A stretch of DNA of 47,359 bases from Candidatus Colinaster equi (GTDB taxonomy: Bacteria; Bacillota; Clostridia; Lachnospirales; Lachnospiraceae), in contig JAGHVF010000055.1 in assembly GCA_018064425.1 (NCBI GenBank), positions 1 to 47,359 of the forward strand, read 5' to 3'. The notes below the pieces were generated by a model. That model worked only from the letters and a program-made list of their open reading frames with translations. It had not been told where the DNA came from and did no database searches. The position numbers were made by a program, and so were the translations under genes. Below, piece after piece: positions 2,441 through 47,268 of this stretch. Within the stretch, counting starts at the first letter, position 1, and each line of letters starts with the position of its first letter.

Positions 2441-3757
2441 ATGAGTTTGTATGAGAAGATAGTAAAAGGTGAAGAGAAGATTGCTCTTGTAGGTCTTGGA
2501 TATGTAGGTATGCCAATCGCGGTTGCTTTTGCCAGAAAGGTTGGAGTAATCGGTTATGATTTGAATGCCGCCAAGATTGATTTGTATAAAAAGGGAATCG
2601 ACCCGACAAACGAAGTAGGTAATGATGTGATTAAGAACACAAAGGTTGAGTTCACATCGGATGAGGCAAAGCTTAAGGAAGCAAAGTTCCATATCGTAGC
2701 AGTACCTACACCTGTTAATGATGATCATACTCCGGATCTTACACCGGTTGAGGGTGCAAGCAGAATTCTTGGACGTAATTTAACAAAGGGTTCGATTGTT
2801 GTATTCGAGTCAACAGTTTATCCCGGTGTAACAGAAGATGTATGTGTTCCGATTTTGGAAAAAGAGTCAGGACTTAAGTGTGGTGTTGATTTCAAGATTG
2901 GTTATTCACCTGAGCGAATCAATCCGGGCGATAAAGTTCACAGACTTGAGACTATCACCAAGATTGTATCAGGTATGGATGCAGAGACACTTGATGAAGT
3001 TGCACATGTATATGAGCTTGTTGTAGATGCAGGCGTTCACAGAGCTGAGTCAATCAAAGTAGCAGAGGCTGCAAAGGTTATTGAGAACAGCCAGAGAGAC
3101 ATTAACATTGCATTTATGAATGAGTTGTCAATTATCTTTGATAAGATGGGCATAGATACTAAGGCAGTCCTTGAAGCAGCAGGAACAAAGTGGAATTTCT
3201 TAAAATTTGCTCCCGGTCTTGTAGGAGGTCACTGTATCGGAGTTGATCCGTACTATTTGACATATAAGGCTGAACAGCTGGGATATCATAGCCAGATTAT
3301 TTTATCAGGTCGTAGAATTAATGATGATATGGGTAAGTATGTGGCAGAGACAGTAGTAAAGAAGCTTATTGCAGCTGATTTGTCCGTAAAGGGTGCTAAG
3401 GTTGCCATTCTTGGATTCACATTCAAAGAGAATTGTCCTGATACTCGTAATACCAAGATAATAGATATATATAATGAACTTAAGGAGTTTGGTATTACAC
3501 CTGTCGTTGTTGATGAGACTGCTGATGCAGACGAAGCGAAGAGACTTTATGGTATCACATTCGGTACTATGGATGATGTCAAGAATATGGATGCAGTTAT
3601 TCTTGCTGTAGCACACGATGCATTTGCTGATTTGAATAAGGCTACAGTAGACGGATACTTCAACAGCAACAACAAGAAGAAAGTACTTGCAGATATCAAG
3701 GGTATACTTGATAAGTCTGAGTATGCAGGTAGTGATTACATCTATTGGAGACTGTAA
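2441..3757 (+). CDS. UDP-HexNAc/UDP-hexose 6-dehydrogenase (WbpO/TviB-type)
   Basis: A 438-residue NAD-dependent nucleotide-sugar 6-dehydrogenase that converts a UDP-hexose or UDP-N-acetylhexosamine to the uronic acid by two oxidations. Seen: Rossmann motif GLGYVG at 18-23, ESTVYPG at 123-129, SPERINPGDK at 156-165, and the catalytic cysteine C265 in GGHCIGVDP. The NPGDK and LSGRRIND patterns fit the UDP-GlcNAc/GalNAc branch better than classical Ugd, but substrate choice is inference. ATG 2441 follows AAGGAAAGAAGGA. Length is normal. Its product is the likely substrate for the AsnB-type amidotransferases nearby. Confidence 0.93.
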   Translation: MSLYEKIVKGEEKIALVGLGYVGMPIAVAFARKVGVIGYDLNAAKIDLYKKGIDPTNEVGNDVIKNTKVEFTSDEAKLKEAKFHIVAVPTPVNDDHTPDLTPVEGASRILGRNLTKGSIVVFESTVYPGVTEDVCVPILEKESGLKCGVDFKIGYSPERINPGDKVHRLETITKIVSGMDAETLDEVAHVYELVVDAGVHRAESIKVAEAAKVIENSQRDINIAFMNELSIIFDKMGIDTKAVLEAAGTKWNFLKFAPGLVGGHCIGVDPYYLTYKAEQLGYHSQIILSGRRINDDMGKYVAETVVKKLIAADLSVKGAKVAILGFTFKENCPDTRNTKIIDIYNELKEFGITPVVVDETADADEAKRLYGITFGTMDDVKNMDAVILAVAHDAFADLNKATVDGYFNSNNKKKVLADIKGILDKSEYAGSDYIYWRL

Positions 3758-3826: not shown

Positions 3827-5206
3827 ATTGAGGAAATATTATTGAATAATAACAAAGCTAAGAAATACGACATTATAAGAAATATCTGTACATTTTTGTT
3901 TATATTCATGTGTCACTTTGTGACTTTTTTTTCTGTTTTTCCGGGAATATGCTATTATGATTTGAATGAACAAATCAATCAGTATATACTACGTGAATTC
4001 TGTACAAATCATCCTATTATTCATACACTGTTCGAAGGATTCTTTTATTCTCAATTTGAAAATCATAATACCGGATATGCGTTTGCTACGATTATCCAGT
4101 TGCTTATTGTAGATGGTGCTATGGTATATGCCCTGTCATTTTTATGGAAGAAGTTGGGCAAAAAATGGCTATATTATCTTGCAATCGTATTCTATGCTAT
4201 GTGGCCGCTGAATTCGTTGCTTGCAGTATCGCATACAAAGGATATTCTCTTTTCGGCGTTTGCGTTCCTATTGTTTATCGATATCTATAGATATATGTTT
4301 GATGAAGGCGTTAAGACGAAATGGTGTATGGCGCGCATTGTAGCGTGGAGTGTTTGTGCATCGTTTTTTAGAAATAATGCGATATATGCGACTGCGGTAA
4401 TGGCGGTAGTATTACTTATAGTAGTATTCGTCGGATATAAGAGACATAATTCGGACAAAAAGACAGTGCAATTGACTGTAACGATAGCCGTAAGCTGTGT
4501 TGTGGCAATAATGGCCGGCAAACTTGTGGTATTTGCTACGGATGGCGCCGCAGGAACCAACCAGGAGATGATGAGTGTTCCGTGTCAGATTATGGCACGC
4601 ATATATAATACAACCGCAACCGATGAGGAAAAGGAAATCATTACTCAATATATTGAAGAACCGGCGGAATATGAGTATTATTTGTCGGATGGAATAAAAA
4701 AACAACTTCCGTTTTCGACATTTGATTCCAAGTGCAAACATTTTTTGCTGGACAGTACAATAATTGCGCTTCATCATCCGATTCAGAGTATTGAAGCGGT
4801 GTGGTTTAATGTTCAGGGATTCTTTGATCCGTTTCATATGCCTTACGGATATGAGCATTTCTTTTTAGCTACTTGCGATTATAGGGGAGGAGCAACGGCA
4901 GACTCTAAACTGGCGAGACTGGGCAATTTCTATTATCAACATTTTAGAGTGACGACAGATTATAGAAGTAACCCTATAATTATTCTTTTGAATATTGGTT
5001 TCTATATTTGGCTTGTAATTGTAGCCATGATTATTGATATTAGAAAAGGTAATGGCGGTATAATTCCGTACTTGTTTCCTATGTTATATTTAGGAACCCT
5101 TTTACTGGGACCGGGAGCTATAGCGCGTTACGGATATTTATTCATTATGATGGCACCGATAGCAATGGGACTGGCGATAAGTCGCAAGTCCGGAGACAAA
5201 GATTAG
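3821..5206 (+). CDS. multi-spanning membrane protein, DUF6020/GT-C-like
   Basis: About 461 residues with roughly ten hydrophobic helices spread along the protein. After the first helix comes an acidic extracytoplasmic loop with YYDLNEQINQ and then NHPIIHTL, the layout of the DUF6020 family, thought to be GT-C-like enzymes using polyprenyl-phosphate sugars. Function is inference. The start is uncertain. ATG 3821 lies inside a hairpin and has little ribosome-site sequence, whereas TTG 3842 (giving an NNNKAKKYD start) has GAGGAA 6-7 nt upstream. The end abuts the next GT4 gene. A T8 run at 3925-3932 is read through in frame. Confidence 0.75.
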   Translation: MHIEEILLNNNKAKKYDIIRNICTFLFIFMCHFVTFFSVFPGICYYDLNEQINQYILREFCTNHPIIHTLFEGFFYSQFENHNTGYAFATIIQLLIVDGAMVYALSFLWKKLGKKWLYYLAIVFYAMWPLNSLLAVSHTKDILFSAFAFLLFIDIYRYMFDEGVKTKWCMARIVAWSVCASFFRNNAIYATAVMAVVLLIVVFVGYKRHNSDKKTVQLTVTIAVSCVVAIMAGKLVVFATDGAAGTNQEMMSVPCQIMARIYNTTATDEEKEIITQYIEEPAEYEYYLSDGIKKQLPFSTFDSKCKHFLLDSTIIALHHPIQSIEAVWFNVQGFFDPFHMPYGYEHFFLATCDYRGGATADSKLARLGNFYYQHFRVTTDYRSNPIIILLNIGFYIWLVIVAMIIDIRKGNGGIIPYLFPMLYLGTLLLGPGAIARYGYLFIMMAPIAMGLAISRKSGDKD

Positions 5207-29694: not shown

Positions 29695-30783
29695 ATGAAC
29701 AGTAGAAAAAATGATTATATCGAATTGCTTCGAGTAATATTGACTTTGTTTGTATGCCTTCATCATATGCGTGCAATTTCGGATAGTATGCCATATGGTG
29801 GGGCATCTATTTGCGTTGACGGATTCTATCTGCTAAGTGGATTCTTTTTGATTATTTCGTTGCGAGCAAGGTATGCAAGCGGCAAGATGTTAACTATACG
29901 AAGATATGCGGTAAGCCGATACGAGAGAGTCTTTACATCCTTTTTGGTAGCTTACGTGGTAGCTGTGCTGCTTAGAATAGTAGTGCTAAAGGAATTCTTT
30001 AGAGGTAGTGTTGTTGGAAATGTTACCGAGCTTTTTTTATGTGAAATATATGCCAATTCAGCCGGCGACAGGATTATTCCTCCGGGATGGTATTTGGGCT
30101 ATTTGCTGCTTGGGCAGATAATAGTATATGCTGTGTTGTATTTGTATCTAAAGAAACAGAAACCCACCGGAAATAAGGTGCTATCTGTGTTAATCAGGAC
30201 GCTATTAGCAGTTGGAGGCTATGGATATCTGTGTATCAAATATGGACATATATGTGTTTATCCTGCACAGGAGGGATTTATTGCCATTGATGTATTAATC
30301 AGAGCTGTTGCGGGTATCGTGTTAGGTACGTTAACTGCCGATTGGTGCATACATACTGAGAAAACCCCAAATAGCACATGTCGAAAAGTCGTGTTTGGTA
30401 TTGCATCTGTGTTGCTGCTTGGAATGATCTGTGTGTATATCATCTTTAACAATGGCTGGACCAGAGCAGACTATCTTATGATTATTTTCTTGGTTTTGCT
30501 CGTCGTATCTTTGTATATATATTCGAACCATGTATGTTTGCACAAGAAGATATCTGCGATTATTCATTGGTTGGGAAATGTGTGTTTTACAACATATCTG
30601 AACCACTATGTCATTATTCATATCTTTGAAGAGAAGGGAGTAGCAAGAAACTGGGATTGGAAAGCCATATCGACATTGTTGTTTGCGGTAGTATTGTTAT
30701 TCTCAATAGCTATTTTCTGTATTGAGACAGTGCTTAGAAAGGGCTTTTTGAAGATACAATCTTTATGTAAAATAAAACAATAA
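29695..30783 (+). CDS. acyltransferase-3 family membrane O-acyltransferase
   Basis: 362 residues with about ten helices. Seen: YIELLRVILTLFVCLHH in helix 1, with R13 and H23/H24 as the conserved AT3 Arg and His, VDGFYLLSGFFL in helix 2, and LGNVCFTTYLNHYVI near the end. It acetylates (or acylates) polysaccharide during export, like OafA. GGAAG precedes ATG 29695. It is the last gene before the promoter at 30790. A truncated relative is at 46429. Confidence 0.87.
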   Translation: MNSRKNDYIELLRVILTLFVCLHHMRAISDSMPYGGASICVDGFYLLSGFFLIISLRARYASGKMLTIRRYAVSRYERVFTSFLVAYVVAVLLRIVVLKEFFRGSVVGNVTELFLCEIYANSAGDRIIPPGWYLGYLLLGQIIVYAVLYLYLKKQKPTGNKVLSVLIRTLLAVGGYGYLCIKYGHICVYPAQEGFIAIDVLIRAVAGIVLGTLTADWCIHTEKTPNSTCRKVVFGIASVLLLGMICVYIIFNNGWTRADYLMIIFLVLLVVSLYIYSNHVCLHKKISAIIHWLGNVCFTTYLNHYVIIHIFEEKGVARNWDWKAISTLLFAVVLLFSIAIFCIETVLRKGFLKIQSLCKIKQ

Positions 30784-37865: not shown

Positions 37866-38822
37866 ATGAAGACAATAACGATAGTAGTACCTACGTATAA
37901 TGAGGAAGCAAATATAGCTTCAATATATGAAAGAGTATGTAAGCTTTTTAATGAGCAATTGGCAGGTTATGAGATGCAGCTCCTTTTTGCGGATAATGCA
38001 TCAAAGGACAATACACGTCAATTGATTAGAGAATTGGCTAAGAAAGATACTCGCGTTCAGGCAATATTCAATGCTACCAATTTTGGTTTCTCAAAGTCCT
38101 CATTCTATGGACTGTCTCAGGCGGAGGGAGATGCGGCAGTACTCATGTATGCCGATATGCAGGACCCGCCGGAAGTTATTCCACAGATGGTGAAAAAATG
38201 GGAAGAGGGATATAAGATTGTTGTAGGTATCAAGTCAAAGAGTCGTGAGAACAAACTGATGTATGCGATTCGCGGAATCTACTATAAGCTGATATCCAAG
38301 ATATCCGAGACAGAACATATCGAACAATATGATGGGTTCGGTCTGTATGATCAAGACTTCATTAAGGAACTGCGCGCGCTTAATGACCCGCTTCCGTATC
38401 TAAGGGGGCTGGTGGCTGAGATGGGTTATGAGAGAGCCGAAGTGGAATATGAGCAGGAAGTAAGAAAAAAGGGAAAATCGTCTTTTAATCTGATGGGATA
38501 CTATGATGTGGCGATGTTAGGCCTGACTTCATCATCAAGAGCTGTAATGAGAATGGCAACATTCTTAGGCCTTGGTCTGTCTGCTATATGTGTAGTGATA
38601 GCATTGGTAACTCTTATCCTGAAGATTGTAAATTGGGAATACTTTGATGTAGGAACTGCGGCAATAATCATCGGAATATTCTTTGTGGGTGGAATACAGA
38701 TATTTTTCCTGGGCTTCTTAGGAGAATATATAGCCAATATTAATGTCAGAACAATGAATCATCCTGTTGTTGTGGAAGACATGAGAATCAATATGACGAG
38801 GGATGTAAGTAAGAAGGAATAG
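37866..38822 (+). CDS. GtrB/ArnC-like polyprenyl-phosphate glycosyltransferase (GT2), copy 2
   Basis: 318 residues, same layout as the protein at 30882: VPTYNEEANI, FADNASKDNT, metal motif DMQDPP, two C-terminal helices at about 233-290 and a tail ending near MRINM. It would make a second undecaprenyl-phosphate-linked sugar. The shared GFGLYDQDFI/GFGLYDKTFI stretch supports a common origin by duplication. The ribosome site AGGA lies about 14 nt from ATG 37866. Gene end and the MBOAT start are only 2 bp apart. Confidence 0.87.
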   Translation: MKTITIVVPTYNEEANIASIYERVCKLFNEQLAGYEMQLLFADNASKDNTRQLIRELAKKDTRVQAIFNATNFGFSKSSFYGLSQAEGDAAVLMYADMQDPPEVIPQMVKKWEEGYKIVVGIKSKSRENKLMYAIRGIYYKLISKISETEHIEQYDGFGLYDQDFIKELRALNDPLPYLRGLVAEMGYERAEVEYEQEVRKKGKSSFNLMGYYDVAMLGLTSSSRAVMRMATFLGLGLSAICVVIALVTLILKIVNWEYFDVGTAAIIIGIFFVGGIQIFFLGFLGEYIANINVRTMNHPVVVEDMRINMTRDVSKKE

Positions 38823-38824
38823 AG

Positions 38825-40286
38825 ATGCAGTTTAATTCATATATATTTATCATGGCCTTTTTGCCGTTAATGTTCATTGGATATTTTGGCGCAAATAGAA
38901 TAAACAGCAAGGTGGGAGAAATATTCCTTATTATTGCAAGTGCTGTATTCTACATATATGCCGGATGGCAAATGGCTGCAATACTCGGTGTAAGTATTGT
39001 GCTCAATTATGCCGTTATTACGGTAATGAAGAAATGGAATAAAGCAAGCAAAGCGATGCTTATTATAGGATTGTGTGTTAATGTGGCTGCATTGCTTTAT
39101 TTCAAATATTTCAATTTCTTCATTAATACATCTAACAGCTTTTTGGGAACTCATATAGAGACAAAGGAGATATTACTTCCGCTTGCGATAAGCTTCTATA
39201 CTTTTAGTCAGATTGCATATCTGGTGAATGTATATAAAGGTATCGGGGGGGGATACAATTGTAGATATAGATGTTCTGGATTACCTGTTCTACATACTGT
39301 ATTTCCCAAAGATTATCAGTGGACCGATTGTCGAGCCGAAAGCACTTATTGAACAAATACACGATGAAGGTCGTAAACATATCGAGTGGGATAATGTGGC
39401 AAGCGGTGCAAGAATATTCTGTTACGGACTTTTTAAGAAGATGTTACTTGCGGATACTTTTTCAAAAGTAGTGACATATGGCCTGGGCAACATAGAGACA
39501 TTAACTGCAATGGATATTTTCATTGTAATGTTATCGTACACATTTGAGATATATTTTGATTTCTCGGGATATTCCGATATGGGTGTCGGTATATCGCAGA
39601 TGATAAATATTGAACTGCCTATCAATTTTGATTCGCCATATAAGGCCTTATCAATACGAGATTTTTGGAAGAGATGGCATATATCGCTTACGTCTTTTCT
39701 GACAAAGTATATATATATACCGCTTGGGGGCAGCCGCAAGGGAAAGGTACGTACATATATCAATACGATGATTGTATTTGTTGTAAGCGGTATATGGCAC
39801 GGAGCTAATTATACATTTATTTTGTGGGGAATATTGCACGGAGTATTCAGTATTGCTGATAGATTGACAGAAAAAATTCAAAGTAAAATCTTTGATGCCG
39901 TCAGATGGGTAGTCACATTTGGAATAGTAAATGTGTTATGGTTGCTGTTTGCATCCGAATCCATAAGTCAATGGAAATGGATGATTATGAAAATGATTGA
40001 GATGAAGAGCACTGAGATAAGTGAGAGTATTCTTAATCTATTCGTATTGCCTGAGAGCAATTGGATACAAGATGTATTACATCTGAATGACGTCGCATAT
40101 GTTATCAGAGGCTTCTGGTTCTTGCTGTTTATGTTTGCAGCATTCTTCATATGCCTTATTCCGGAGAATAATTATAAGATGCGTAAGAGGGTATCATATG
40201 TTGGCGCTGTTGTGTCAGCAGTAGCATTTGTGTGGGCATTCTTGTGCCTGGGTACCGAGTCAACGTTTGTATATTTTGGGTTTTAG
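38825..40286 (+). pseudogene. MBOAT O-acyltransferase, frameshifted at a G8 tract (possibly phase-variable)
   Basis: AlgI/DltB-type membrane-bound O-acyltransferase in two frames. The first part (38825-39352, 175 residues) covers the N-terminal helices. Its last ~35 residues after the G-run are non-homologous read-through. The second frame carries LDYLFYILYFPKIISGPI directly after the G-run, then FDFSGYSDMG, RDFWKRWH and GIWHGANYTF with the catalytic-type His. Removing one G (G7) joins the parts into one 486-residue protein of normal length. With G8 as given, no full protein is made unless the tract slips. Partner SGNH-like proteins are encoded at 15948 and 43821. AAGGA precedes ATG 38825. 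Confidence 0.85.
39245..39252 (+). repeat. homopolymeric G8 tract
   Basis: Eight consecutive G inside the MBOAT coding region, exactly at the point where the reading frame must change by one base. Such a run is conspicuous in AT-rich DNA and is the only G or C run of this length I noticed in the window. Confidence 0.95.
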
Positions 40287-40291
40287 AATCT

Positions 40292-41623
40292 ATGAAAAAA
40301 AGCAATTGGTTTGAATTAAGAAAAATAATTGAAATATTGGTAATAGCGTGTATCCTTGTGATTTCATATTGGGCTACGGGCGGAATCAAAAAATCAGCGG
40401 ATACAGATGTATATTTGCAATTCTTAGATTGGGTACCGCCGGTATATCCTGTATTTATAAGAATTATCTCATTTATCGCACCGCAGCATTATGAAATATT
40501 GGCATTCGTATTGCAGGCGATGTTGGCTATATATGCAACAGTATACGCTACCGATGTATTTTGTAGACATTATGGGATTGACAGATTCAGAGTATTGGTA
40601 ATGCTGTGTGTGCTAGTTACATATTTTAAGGCAGATGAGCATGGTACATCAGCAAGTGCATGGTTAATGACAGAGGGATTGGCATATTCCATGTTTATTA
40701 TCTTGGCGGCCAATATGGTGTCGTACTATTTTACATTGAATAGAGCGTATTTTATTAGAATCCTAATTGATGTTACATTGTTAACACTTTGCAGAAGTCA
40801 ATTCGCAGAATTGTATATCATCATAGCAATATATTTGGTAATAATAGCGTTAGTAAAAGAATACTCGATAAAGAGAAACGCACTAATTGTTGTAGGAATT
40901 ATAGCAAGTGCTCTTATATGGATGGTTGGACAAAAGATATATGAGCAAAATGCCGTACCTGACAGAGTACATTCATATGGAAAATCTCAAGTAACTTCAC
41001 ATTTGCTATATTATATGGAAGATGGCGACCTTGAAGAAATAGCGGATGCTAAAGTTAAAGTACATATGATGGACATATATACGGATATGAAACAAGCCGG
41101 TATGTCATATGCGGACAGACCTGATGATTGGCTGGGTACTGCCGAACATTACAAGGAAGCTGCCAATTATAATCGAATGATGATGATGAAGAAAAATAAG
41201 GCATACTTTGGTGATGAGTATACAGATCTTGCTGAGTCGGAGTTGTTGGATGTGGAGAAAAGTGTACTTGCAAAATACTACGTCAAGTGGATAGGTGTAT
41301 CGTTATTACAGCTTCCGATTAGTGTATCAAGAAGTATTTCATTGTATTATCCACCGCTTGGTATACTGTTCTTGATTGCCAATACTATACTGCTTGTAGT
41401 TTACCTTGGGTTAAATATCCTTGAGATTAGGAAAAAGGGCAGTATACAACCTGAAAATGTAATGTGTATGCTAATACTGATGTTAGTGGTAGGTAATGCC
41501 ATCGGGACGGGCTTTTTGATTCGTTCCATAACTCGGTATCTTGCGTACCCGTTTGGTATTTTTTATGTATCATTTCTAATTGTTTTGGTTAAATATGTTG
41601 AAGAAATTAAGAGAGCTAATTGA
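40292..41623 (+). CDS. multi-spanning membrane protein, GT-C-like
   Basis: About 443 residues with some nine to ten helices. After helix 1 come KKSADTDVYLQFL and VPPVYPVFIR, equivalent to the DSETY...REPLYP loop of the protein at 8177, so these are likely distant paralogues with an acidic catalytic loop. A soluble acidic stretch lies around 225-330. ATG 40292 is 5 bp after the MBOAT stop. The reading frame extends upstream to a TTG at 40232, but that part overlaps the MBOAT gene. The ribosome site is weak, which suggests coupling to MBOAT translation. Confidence 0.73.
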   Translation: MKKSNWFELRKIIEILVIACILVISYWATGGIKKSADTDVYLQFLDWVPPVYPVFIRIISFIAPQHYEILAFVLQAMLAIYATVYATDVFCRHYGIDRFRVLVMLCVLVTYFKADEHGTSASAWLMTEGLAYSMFIILAANMVSYYFTLNRAYFIRILIDVTLLTLCRSQFAELYIIIAIYLVIIALVKEYSIKRNALIVVGIIASALIWMVGQKIYEQNAVPDRVHSYGKSQVTSHLLYYMEDGDLEEIADAKVKVHMMDIYTDMKQAGMSYADRPDDWLGTAEHYKEAANYNRMMMMKKNKAYFGDEYTDLAESELLDVEKSVLAKYYVKWIGVSLLQLPISVSRSISLYYPPLGILFLIANTILLVVYLGLNILEIRKKGSIQPENVMCMLILMLVVGNAIGTGFLIRSITRYLAYPFGIFYVSFLIVLVKYVEEIKRAN

Positions 41624-42866
41624 AGCGCAAGCTGACTATATATGGAATTACATAAGTGTTGTTATATTAGCAGCATGCGGATTCGCACTTAATGTGATAA
41701 TTGCATATGCATACGGTGAGGAAGTATTAGGTACTTTTAATCAGGCATATGCATGGTACACGGTTATTTCGCAGATTGCAGTGTTGGGAATCCATAATGC
41801 TGTAACAAAATATGTTGCGGAGTATATTGATGAAAAAGAACTTGTTGGTAATTACTACTCTGTTTCCGTGATATCCGTAACAGTCATTTCTATCGTTATT
41901 ACAGTATTAACGGAGCTGGTTATATATGCATTGAATAATAAGGGGATGATTAGTAACCCATTGGCAATAAGCATGTTGTTGATTATGCTGGGATTACCTT
42001 TTTTTTCCATCAATAAAGTTATTCTTGGCTATATTAATGGAATATCGGAATTCAAGGCATATGCCATATATCAGTCGTTGCGATATATATTGCTCCTTGT
42101 AATGTTGGGAATAATTATTATATGTGACTGGGGCGGAGAATATACAGCACTTGTTTTTCCGATTGAGGAAATGGTGTTACTATTGGTTATGCTGATAAAA
42201 TACAGCGTTCCGCTGAAGTATGACAGAGAGGTCAACAAGAATGTTTTGACATTTGGAGTAAAATCTCTTCCGAGCAATATGGTTTCGCAGATTACACCCA
42301 AAGTAGATATTCTAAGTCTTAGCTTAATGCAGATTGATGCGGGACTTATAGGTGTGTATTCGTTGGTTACTTCATTCTCTGATGGATTTTATCAGTTATA
42401 TATTGTTCTTAGAAAAAAAGTCAATCCGAGTCTTTCGTACAATTATTCCAAGAATATAGGATATAACGAAGGGAAAGATTGGAAGAGCATTAAGATGTAT
42501 GTATACGCATTACTTCCGATAGGAGGAGCTTGTGTAATAGCTGTGTATATTTTCTTGTGTAAATTCATCCTGGGAGACGCCTACAGTGGAGGAATTCCAT
42601 CAATATGCATATTGATAATATGCGCAATATTGAATGGAAAATGGATAGCATACGGCAATATGTTTTCGCAATACGGATATCCAAGTATAGAGTCAATAAT
42701 AAATGTGGTAACACTACTTGTTAATGTATTATTTAATATTGCACTTATTTGGAAAATAGGTGTGATAGGTGCAGCAATAGCTACAGGAATATCATATTTT
42801 GCATATTCCATTCTTATGAGTGTAACATACAGAAAGAGATTTGCGAATAAAAGAGGGACAAAATGA
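41595..42866 (+). CDS. Wzx-like polysaccharide flippase (PST family)
   Basis: About 423 residues with roughly twelve helices over the whole length. Seen: LNVIIAYAYGEEVLGTFNQAYAW near the start and long conserved-looking helices with GIGAAIATGISYF-type ends (VIGAAIATGISY), typical of the MATE/PST oligosaccharide flippases. It moves undecaprenyl-linked repeat units across the membrane. The start is ATG 41595, overlapping the previous gene by 29 bp, with only a weak ribosome site. This is a third candidate translocator after the two PglK-like ABC proteins. Confidence 0.85.
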   Translation: MLKKLRELIEAQADYIWNYISVVILAACGFALNVIIAYAYGEEVLGTFNQAYAWYTVISQIAVLGIHNAVTKYVAEYIDEKELVGNYYSVSVISVTVISIVITVLTELVIYALNNKGMISNPLAISMLLIMLGLPFFSINKVILGYINGISEFKAYAIYQSLRYILLLVMLGIIIICDWGGEYTALVFPIEEMVLLLVMLIKYSVPLKYDREVNKNVLTFGVKSLPSNMVSQITPKVDILSLSLMQIDAGLIGVYSLVTSFSDGFYQLYIVLRKKVNPSLSYNYSKNIGYNEGKDWKSIKMYVYALLPIGGACVIAVYIFLCKFILGDAYSGGIPSICILIICAILNGKWIAYGNMFSQYGYPSIESIINVVTLLVNVLFNIALIWKIGVIGAAIATGISYFAYSILMSVTYRKRFANKRGTK

Positions 42867-46428: not shown

Positions 46429-47268
46429 ATGGAGATGTTGGTAAAAAAATCAGACAGGCAGACGATAATAGATATTCTTAAAGGTATTAGTATTATTTTT
46501 GTTATTATTACACATTATGGTTGGAATGAGGACCAACGATTAGCGGCTCTTTTTCCCTATTACATAGATATGGCAGTGCCTACATTTATGGTTATATCAG
46601 GTTATGTGTTTTCTGCATCATATTTGAAAAAAGGAATTATTCATTTTGAAGATGCATATGAATTGATACATGTAGTGAAAAGGGTGATTAGATATACAAT
46701 TCCATTTTTGGTGGCGTATTTACTTGAAGTGGGGTTTACGCTTTATAATAATAACGAAATCAGTTTTAGTGGTTTTGTAATAAATTTTCTTAAAGGAGGT
46801 TTTGGACCAGGGAGTTATTATTATCCGGAAATGATTCAGTTGACCTTTTTTTTGCCAGTTATTCTTTTTTCTATGAAAAAAGTCCCCAAAATAGGATTGT
46901 GTTTTTGGTTCGTTTTCAACATGTTTTATGAATTAATTAAGACAGTTCTGTGTCTTGATCCAGAGATATATAGATTGTCATTATTTAGATATACTTTTTT
47001 AATTGCATTTGGGTGTTATATATATTTACGGAGAAATGAACGTGTAAATCGAGTGATATTGGGCTCATTGTTTATCGTAGGAAGCATATATATATATTTA
47101 GTAAGGTATTGTGGATATACTTCGAAGATTATCAATTATTGGTGTGGAACAAGCTTTGTGGCAGCGTTGTATATTGCGCCTTTATTAATGGTAATAATAT
47201 ATAACTTTGGTTCACTTTCTTTTAGACCTTTGGAGTTAGTTGGAAAAGCATCGTATAACATAGAGTAA
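46429..47268 (+). CDS. acyltransferase-3 family protein, C-terminally truncated
   Basis: 279 residues. Seen: IIDILKGISIIFVIITHYGW (AT3 helix 1 with the conserved His), VPTFMVISGYVFS, and eight to nine helices. It stops at LVGKASYNIE, exactly where AT3 proteins normally continue with a helix (SYxIFLxQ). Compared with the 362-residue AT3 at 29695, about 70-80 residues and two helices are missing. The stop is followed by unrelated sequence, so I infer breakage by insertion or rearrangement. Whether it still works is doubtful. Confidence 0.8.
   Translation: MEMLVKKSDRQTIIDILKGISIIFVIITHYGWNEDQRLAALFPYYIDMAVPTFMVISGYVFSASYLKKGIIHFEDAYELIHVVKRVIRYTIPFLVAYLLEVGFTLYNNNEISFSGFVINFLKGGFGPGSYYYPEMIQLTFFLPVILFSMKKVPKIGLCFWFVFNMFYELIKTVLCLDPEIYRLSLFRYTFLIAFGCYIYLRRNERVNRVILGSLFIVGSIYIYLVRYCGYTSKIINYWCGTSFVAALYIAPLLMVIIYNFGSLSFRPLELVGKASYNIE

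Follow-up and report, generated by a model that had tools for sequence, protein, structure and literature searches.

The split MBOAT gene and its surroundings

The window, meaning the whole stretch of DNA analyzed here (contig JAGHVF010000055.1, 47,359 nucleotides), carries an MBOAT acyltransferase gene in two ORFs that overlap across a run of exactly eight G, as read directly from the sequence. The relevant features, all on the + strand, are as follows.

45-47268, +: surface-polysaccharide biosynthesis cluster (Pfam scans of all 39 listed ORFs)
29695-30783, +: acyltransferase-3 gene (Pfam scans of window ORFs)
37866-38822, +: glycosyltransferase family 2 gene, directly upstream of the MBOAT gene with a 2 nt gap (Pfam)
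38825-39352, +: MBOAT gene, first half; 175-aa ORF, N-terminal membrane part
39228-40286, +: MBOAT gene, second half; 352-aa ORF with the RWH and WHG histidine motifs
39236-39278, +: loop between conserved VY and DY codons, holding the tract (alignment of relatives)
39245-39252, +: G8 homopolymer tract, the proposed slippage site (sequence count)
40292-41623, +: downstream gene, 443 aa from the ATG at 40292; multi-pass membrane protein by eye, no family match
41580-42866, +: flippase-like protein (Pfam scans of window ORFs)
46429-47268, +: acyltransferase-3 gene, short (Pfam scans of window ORFs)

About 140 codons of the first half are homologous to relatives, and the remainder, past the tract, is an out-of-frame tail that reaches a stop 32 codons beyond the G8 run. 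The downstream frame is +1 relative to the upstream frame; it is already open 5 codons ahead of the tract and stays open for 343 codons beyond it. The conserved VY ends at 39235 and the conserved DY starts at 39279, and homology puts the frame break between them, where the tract sits. This loop measures 43 nt in the window; 29 of the 30 aligned rows have 9-10 residues there and the remaining row has 17. The 30 rows include duplicates (over the part displayed, L196, L197 and L198 appear identical to L065, L060 and L066) and the near-identical pair L051 and L052. The tract thus belongs to an expanded loop between conserved segments, which would be tolerant of length changes and in which extra glycines may be acceptable. 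A homopolymer of switch-capable length, set at seven or more G or C after the available part of PMC6321876, thus occupies a frame-determining position inside a reading frame, and the gene is otherwise intact on both sides of it.

The second half matched the Pfam MBOAT family (PF03062) at 1.7e-32, with 113.5 bits against a gathering cut-off of 27. The first half alone gave no Pfam match; its residues 1-139/141 align with the N-termini of the same MBOAT relatives. Among solved structures the nearest to the second half was DltB (PDB 6bug, 8.2e-23), and like DltB/AlgI-type acyltransferases this half aligns to DltB chains and keeps both the RWH and the WHG motif. Nevertheless, its match to the DltB model TIGR04091 (2.2e-44) reached 152.2 bits against an equivalog cut-off of 375, and the DltB name was dropped. 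The locus further differs from DltB/AlgI-type systems in that no Dlt-named Pfam match occurs among the 39 window ORFs and no recognized periplasmic acyltransferase adjoins the MBOAT gene. A periplasmic partner was sought, and none of the 39 ORFs gave an SGNH-type Pfam match up to the contig end at 47359.

Besides the genes listed above, the cluster contains a UDP-sugar dehydrogenase, an initiating sugar transferase (Bac_transf), several glycosyltransferases, a DUF2334/deacetylase and two ABC transporters. The glycosyltransferase family 2 gene and the MBOAT gene presumably belong to one operon, and a closed MBOAT frame could possibly cause polarity on 40292-41623 and beyond. The sequence-only reading had described a gene intact in two frames with the break exactly at G8 39245-39252, on which the ORFs and the homology agree. 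Its naming of an MBOAT O-acyltransferase was borne out by the PF03062 score, and the polysaccharide context that it proposed was confirmed by the Pfam scans. The acyltransferase-3 ORF at 46429-47268 stops at 279 aa, at profile position 280 of 326 and near the contig end, and is possibly a truncated gene.

Relatives of the MBOAT gene

The two halves were searched separately against 112 loci. Both were present in 110, one of these being the window itself, and the second half alone in 2. In 108 of the 109 other loci the halves share one frame. The sole exception, L071 (Syntrophomonas palmitatica), is similar to the first half over residues 1-62 only. Judged from the alignment, L071 has no frame change at the tract site, so that its break is elsewhere. 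A search of 397 family genomes at E<=1e-90 found 13 places in 12 other genomes, all open and encoding 478-509 aa; the sequence-only reading had put the continuous protein expected with seven G at 486 residues. No relative in the 112 loci or the 397 family genomes was split at the tract position, which argues against conserved recoding. The G8 run was absent from every relative examined, the longest G run joining the halves being 6.

A second genome of the species was also sought. The best-scoring DNA match in 20 genus genomes was 73% over 321 bases, the best protein identity was 60% among genome contigs (best 80 loci of more) and 61% in the 397 family genomes, and plasmids gave 2 weak matches only. 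Viral contigs held 0 exact matches to the 22-base tract flank.

Consensus quality and gene integrity

All 22 A/T runs of 7-8 bases in the window lie within open ORFs, none of which is shorter than 254 aa. Two of these runs (at 46443 and 46846) are in the acyltransferase-3 ORF that falls short of its family profile, and the end of that ORF is not at those runs. Conserved columns of the MBOAT alignment were defined as those kept in 95% or more of the other rows, leaving out L071; the window differs at 3 of 88 such columns and the 29 intact rows differ at 0-11. Two of the three deviations (G to A, Q to S) fall in the first half and the third (A to G) falls in the second half. Over the 343 codons of the second half no sign of decay was seen in these columns, where a decaying gene would be expected to deviate more often. 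Decay of the second half had been named in the sequence-only reading as a sign against switching. Its main alternative, a sequencing or assembly error at the homopolymer, is likewise weakened by the A/T runs. Since these runs are all in open ORFs and the second half is free of decay, a consensus error or an old pseudogene appears less likely than a switch.

Long G runs in the genome

The window is contig C18 of a draft genome of 2.33 Mb in 79 contigs that is 83.7% complete. By a first-order Markov model of the window, the + strand should carry 0.23 runs of at least eight G; one G8 run is therefore unremarkable alone and constitutes weak evidence. What does stand out is that the window contains no G6 or G7 run and that the whole genome has just five runs of at least seven G (lengths 10, 9, 8, 7 and 9), where the same model predicts about 53. 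Such runs are thus depleted, and the G8 run of the window is the only one of the five in a gene, the other 4 lying between long ORFs. Under the same model, the probability that no more than one of five such runs has a length of exactly 7 is 0.0098. Most long G runs thus seem to be kept out of the genome, and the retained ones are long.

With long runs depleted and no other run in a gene, the genome is not a Campylobacter-like phasome. The Campylobacter system is similar in that tracts of at least seven G, most of them within ORFs, serve it as translational on/off switches; nevertheless, 1,944 G/C tracts, mostly G9-G10, were counted in 77 Campylobacter genomes, against the five tracts, one of them in a gene, found here (figures from the accessible part of PMC6321876).

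G tracts across the genus

Tracts of G8 or longer occur in 14 of 20 genus genomes, the window's included, and all 36 genus tracts outside the window's genome were fetched and their contexts read. At a chemoreceptor locus shared by two genomes (L171 and L172, from G005 and G007; 99.5% identical), 3,699 aligned bases contain 17 mismatches and one indel. This sole indel lies in a G tract (G8 in one copy, G9 in the other) behind a TTGACG box, some 120 nt ahead of the chemoreceptor gene, and, on comparison of the two copies, it appears to be the clearest slippage evidence in the genus. Such near-identity across two species-level genomes may reflect transfer or mis-binning; the two sequences are distinct either way. 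A search with the chemoreceptor-upstream DNA returned G007 itself, G005 and a weak G018 match, and nothing else. Chemoreceptor-like genes in four genus genomes (L169, L171, L172 and L193) have upstream G8/G9 tracts after a TTGAC box.

Tract length also varies between tandem FecR-like genes in G007 (L173), where one copy has G9 and is closed (3023-3031) and the other has G8 and is open (4919-4926). Each tract is placed 17 codons from the start of its gene, and the roughly 180 columns aligned around it contain a single further difference. Varying tract length is therefore found elsewhere in the lineage, at L171/L172 and in these FecR copies.

Twelve genus tracts, again including the window's, were judged coding, with 5 genes broken at the tract, 5 in frame and 2 ambiguous (L170 and L190). 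Breaks at the tract were seen in a membrane protein gene with G9 (L167, PMT_2 match below cut-off), in a DUF4956 gene with G10 near its 3' end (L181) and in an acyltransferase-3 gene with G8 (L183). The genes in frame at the tract are L162 (FliB-like), the second FecR copy, L180 (FkbM), L187 (MurE) and L191. Four loci were set aside as clean parallels: L183 has a second, downstream break and looks decayed, L190 has competing start frames, the L170 tract is at the gene end, and the MurE gene is in frame. The MurE tract probably encodes a constrained peptide, so that not every coding G tract would be a switch.

Of the other genus tracts, some precede genes, some are close to terminators or to contig ends, and the rest fit no class. 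A scaffold gap separates two G runs at L169:960-1024, and several contigs of the family genome G079 (L263, L266, L268 and L271) stop no more than a few bases from a G10-G11 tract. The assemblies are broken at these tracts, through read heterogeneity or poly-G read failure.

Interpretation of the split gene

Slipped-strand phase variation of a predicted surface-glycan acylase, the MBOAT gene being open or closed in each cell at the G8 tract, is the reading that we favor and consider reasonably probable. Slipped-strand mispairing in replication would alter the length of the G tract within the length-tolerant loop. In the closed state, which is that of the consensus, translation would stop before both histidine motifs, and no enzyme would be expected. 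In the open state the membrane O-acyltransferase would acylate the polysaccharide made by the surrounding cluster, passing acyl groups to the glycan as assembled there, and acylated and non-acylated surface sugar would occur side by side in the population. Slippage at the tract, its reversibility and an effect on the glycan are all three what we infer from the tract and its relatives. The candidate phase variation of the sequence-only reading accordingly keeps its status as a candidate at this locus, and it is the best-supported reading in view of the break at the tract, the lack of decay and the length differences in the genus. Against it, G8 is at the short end of tract lengths and no relative carries the tract. 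According to the portion of PMC6321876 available, some Campylobacter jejuni genes are switched by tracts of at least eight G, and Campylobacter tract lengths are 53% G9 and 26% G10.

The closed consensus might instead reflect a recent fixed loss of function, in which one slippage closed the gene in this lineage, with no reversion and with decay to come. We regard this as unlikely. It would fit a single consensus that has only the closed state, the searches having given no other genome of the species, and the two acyltransferase-3 genes of the cluster could make the MBOAT enzyme dispensable. Nevertheless, the break sits at a reversible homopolymer, the 343 codons are without decay, and two of the three deviating conserved columns are in the first half. 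A sequencing or assembly error, the true tract keeping the gene open, is given a low probability. The genome is a draft in 79 contigs, G tracts elsewhere coincide with contig ends or a scaffold gap (L169, L263, L266, L268 and L271), and G tracts are hard to read, such that database lengths can be wrong (available part of PMC9187656). The integrity of ORFs at all 22 A/T runs argues against such an error, and a true repeat would be expected to sit, as this tract does, in a loop longer than that of 29 of 30 aligned relatives.

RNA polymerase can slip on a homopolymer, and the downstream ORF opens at 39228, just ahead of the tract; expression of the MBOAT protein despite the break, whether the polymerase slips or the ribosome shifts frame at the G run, was therefore weighed as well and is judged very improbable. 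Ordinary -1 ribosomal frameshifting was ruled out because the downstream frame is +1 and so out of reach for a -1 shift on the G run, and no relative examined has a gene split at the tract position.

Comparison with known switches

The pneumococcal wciZ gene has a dinucleotide repeat and belongs to an enzyme family other than MBOAT, and the staphylococcal icaC gene also differs from the window's gene in family and repeat. Nevertheless, Streptococcus pneumoniae wciZ (serotype 15B/15C) resembles the favored phase-variation reading as a Gram-positive capsule O-acetyltransferase gene with reversible slipped-strand switching, which is demonstrated there, whereas for the window's MBOAT gene we infer it; Staphylococcus aureus icaC encodes a membrane protein thought to O-succinylate an exopolysaccharide and undergoes slipped-strand inactivation (both after the accessible text of PMC4432689). 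The Gram-positive gut commensal Bifidobacterium breve has a pilus switch (bbr_0113 and bbr_1889) in which two ORFs are parted by a coding G tract; unlike the window's gene, this concerns a pilin and not a glycan enzyme, and the length mixture was measured by deep sequencing in B. breve and not for the window (PMC9187656, in the part available).

Slipped-strand switching is thus already known as a kind. Homopolymeric tracts in 99 genomes are treated in the accessible part of PMC2831843, and the part of the review PMC11868660 that was available yielded no mention of Lachnospiraceae. We found no earlier report of poly-G phase variation in Lachnospiraceae or of a phase-variable MBOAT gene in the literature searched, which largely excluded subscription journals. 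If the phase-variation reading is true, a single population would contain surface sugar in different acylation states, with possible consequences for phage attack, antibody recognition and glycan-degrading neighbors.

Poly-G tracts and promoter-like sites across the family

Tracts of G9 or longer are present in 70 of 100 family genomes. The sequence-only reading had called such tracts little described in Lachnospiraceae-type loci; this fits the literature searched, but the tracts themselves are common. Very long G runs were seen in G126 (23 bases, contig 17:48954-48976) and in G062 (18 bases, contig 7:56594-56611).

All 33 tracts of G9 or longer in the genome G079 were fetched, and 5 of them lie in promoter spacers of the form TTGAC-N-Gn-TAGANT. 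In a promoter-spacer test of 83 fetched tracts, which was not blind in that the motif had been seen before the test was written, 7 passed, against a mean of 0.16 in 2,000 flank shuffles (maximum 3) and 1 on the other strand. None of the 10 tracts fetched from G103 (15 listed) passed. Among the chemoreceptor loci L193 passed; L169, L171 and L172 failed and are called upstream tracts and not promoters. The strict-spacing promoter pattern occurred at 1 place in the 20 genus genomes. In a cleaner test across the 397 family genomes, the looser pattern TTGAC-N(7-11)-G8-TANNNT was found at 29 places (L283-L311) in 22 genomes and 21 genera, with 0 for the backwards control; leaving out G079, where the motif had already been seen, 26 places in 21 genomes remain. 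The tracts of G8 or more at the 29 sites sit directly before the -10 box. Of the 28 ORFs downstream of these sites (one site has none), 21 look secreted when judged by a rough signal-peptide criterion, compared with 192 of 511 ORFs in an unmatched control set from loci L051-L130 (Fisher p = 1.1e-4).

On these grounds we lean slightly toward the view that poly-G switching is widespread in the family, is largely undescribed and comes in two architectures. One would consist of coding tracts in genes for glycans, chemotaxis and the envelope, the MBOAT gene among them; the other would consist of "slipping promoters" of the form TTGAC-N-Gn-TANNNT, with the tract abutting the -10 box, mostly before predicted secreted proteins. 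The main value of the split MBOAT gene is as a pointer to this wider poly-G layer. Phase variation in gut bacteria has mostly been sought as DNA inversions. If real, the poly-G layer would be missed by inversion-seeking methods and partly lost in assembly, yet countable in high-accuracy reads.

The window's own genome has no match to the family pattern TTGAC-N(7-11)-G8-TANNNT. It does contain a near-match on contig 64 (L021:5024-5032), where a G9 run lies exactly between TTTACA and TATAAT with an 18-nt spacer, 38 nt upstream of a PilZ-like gene whose PilZ score is just under the cut-off; this site is a candidate slipping promoter. An intergenic element, GGGGTATAGC...TATAATACCCC, is alike in two species, with a G7 run at L020:4992-4998 and a G9 run at L182:3046-3054.
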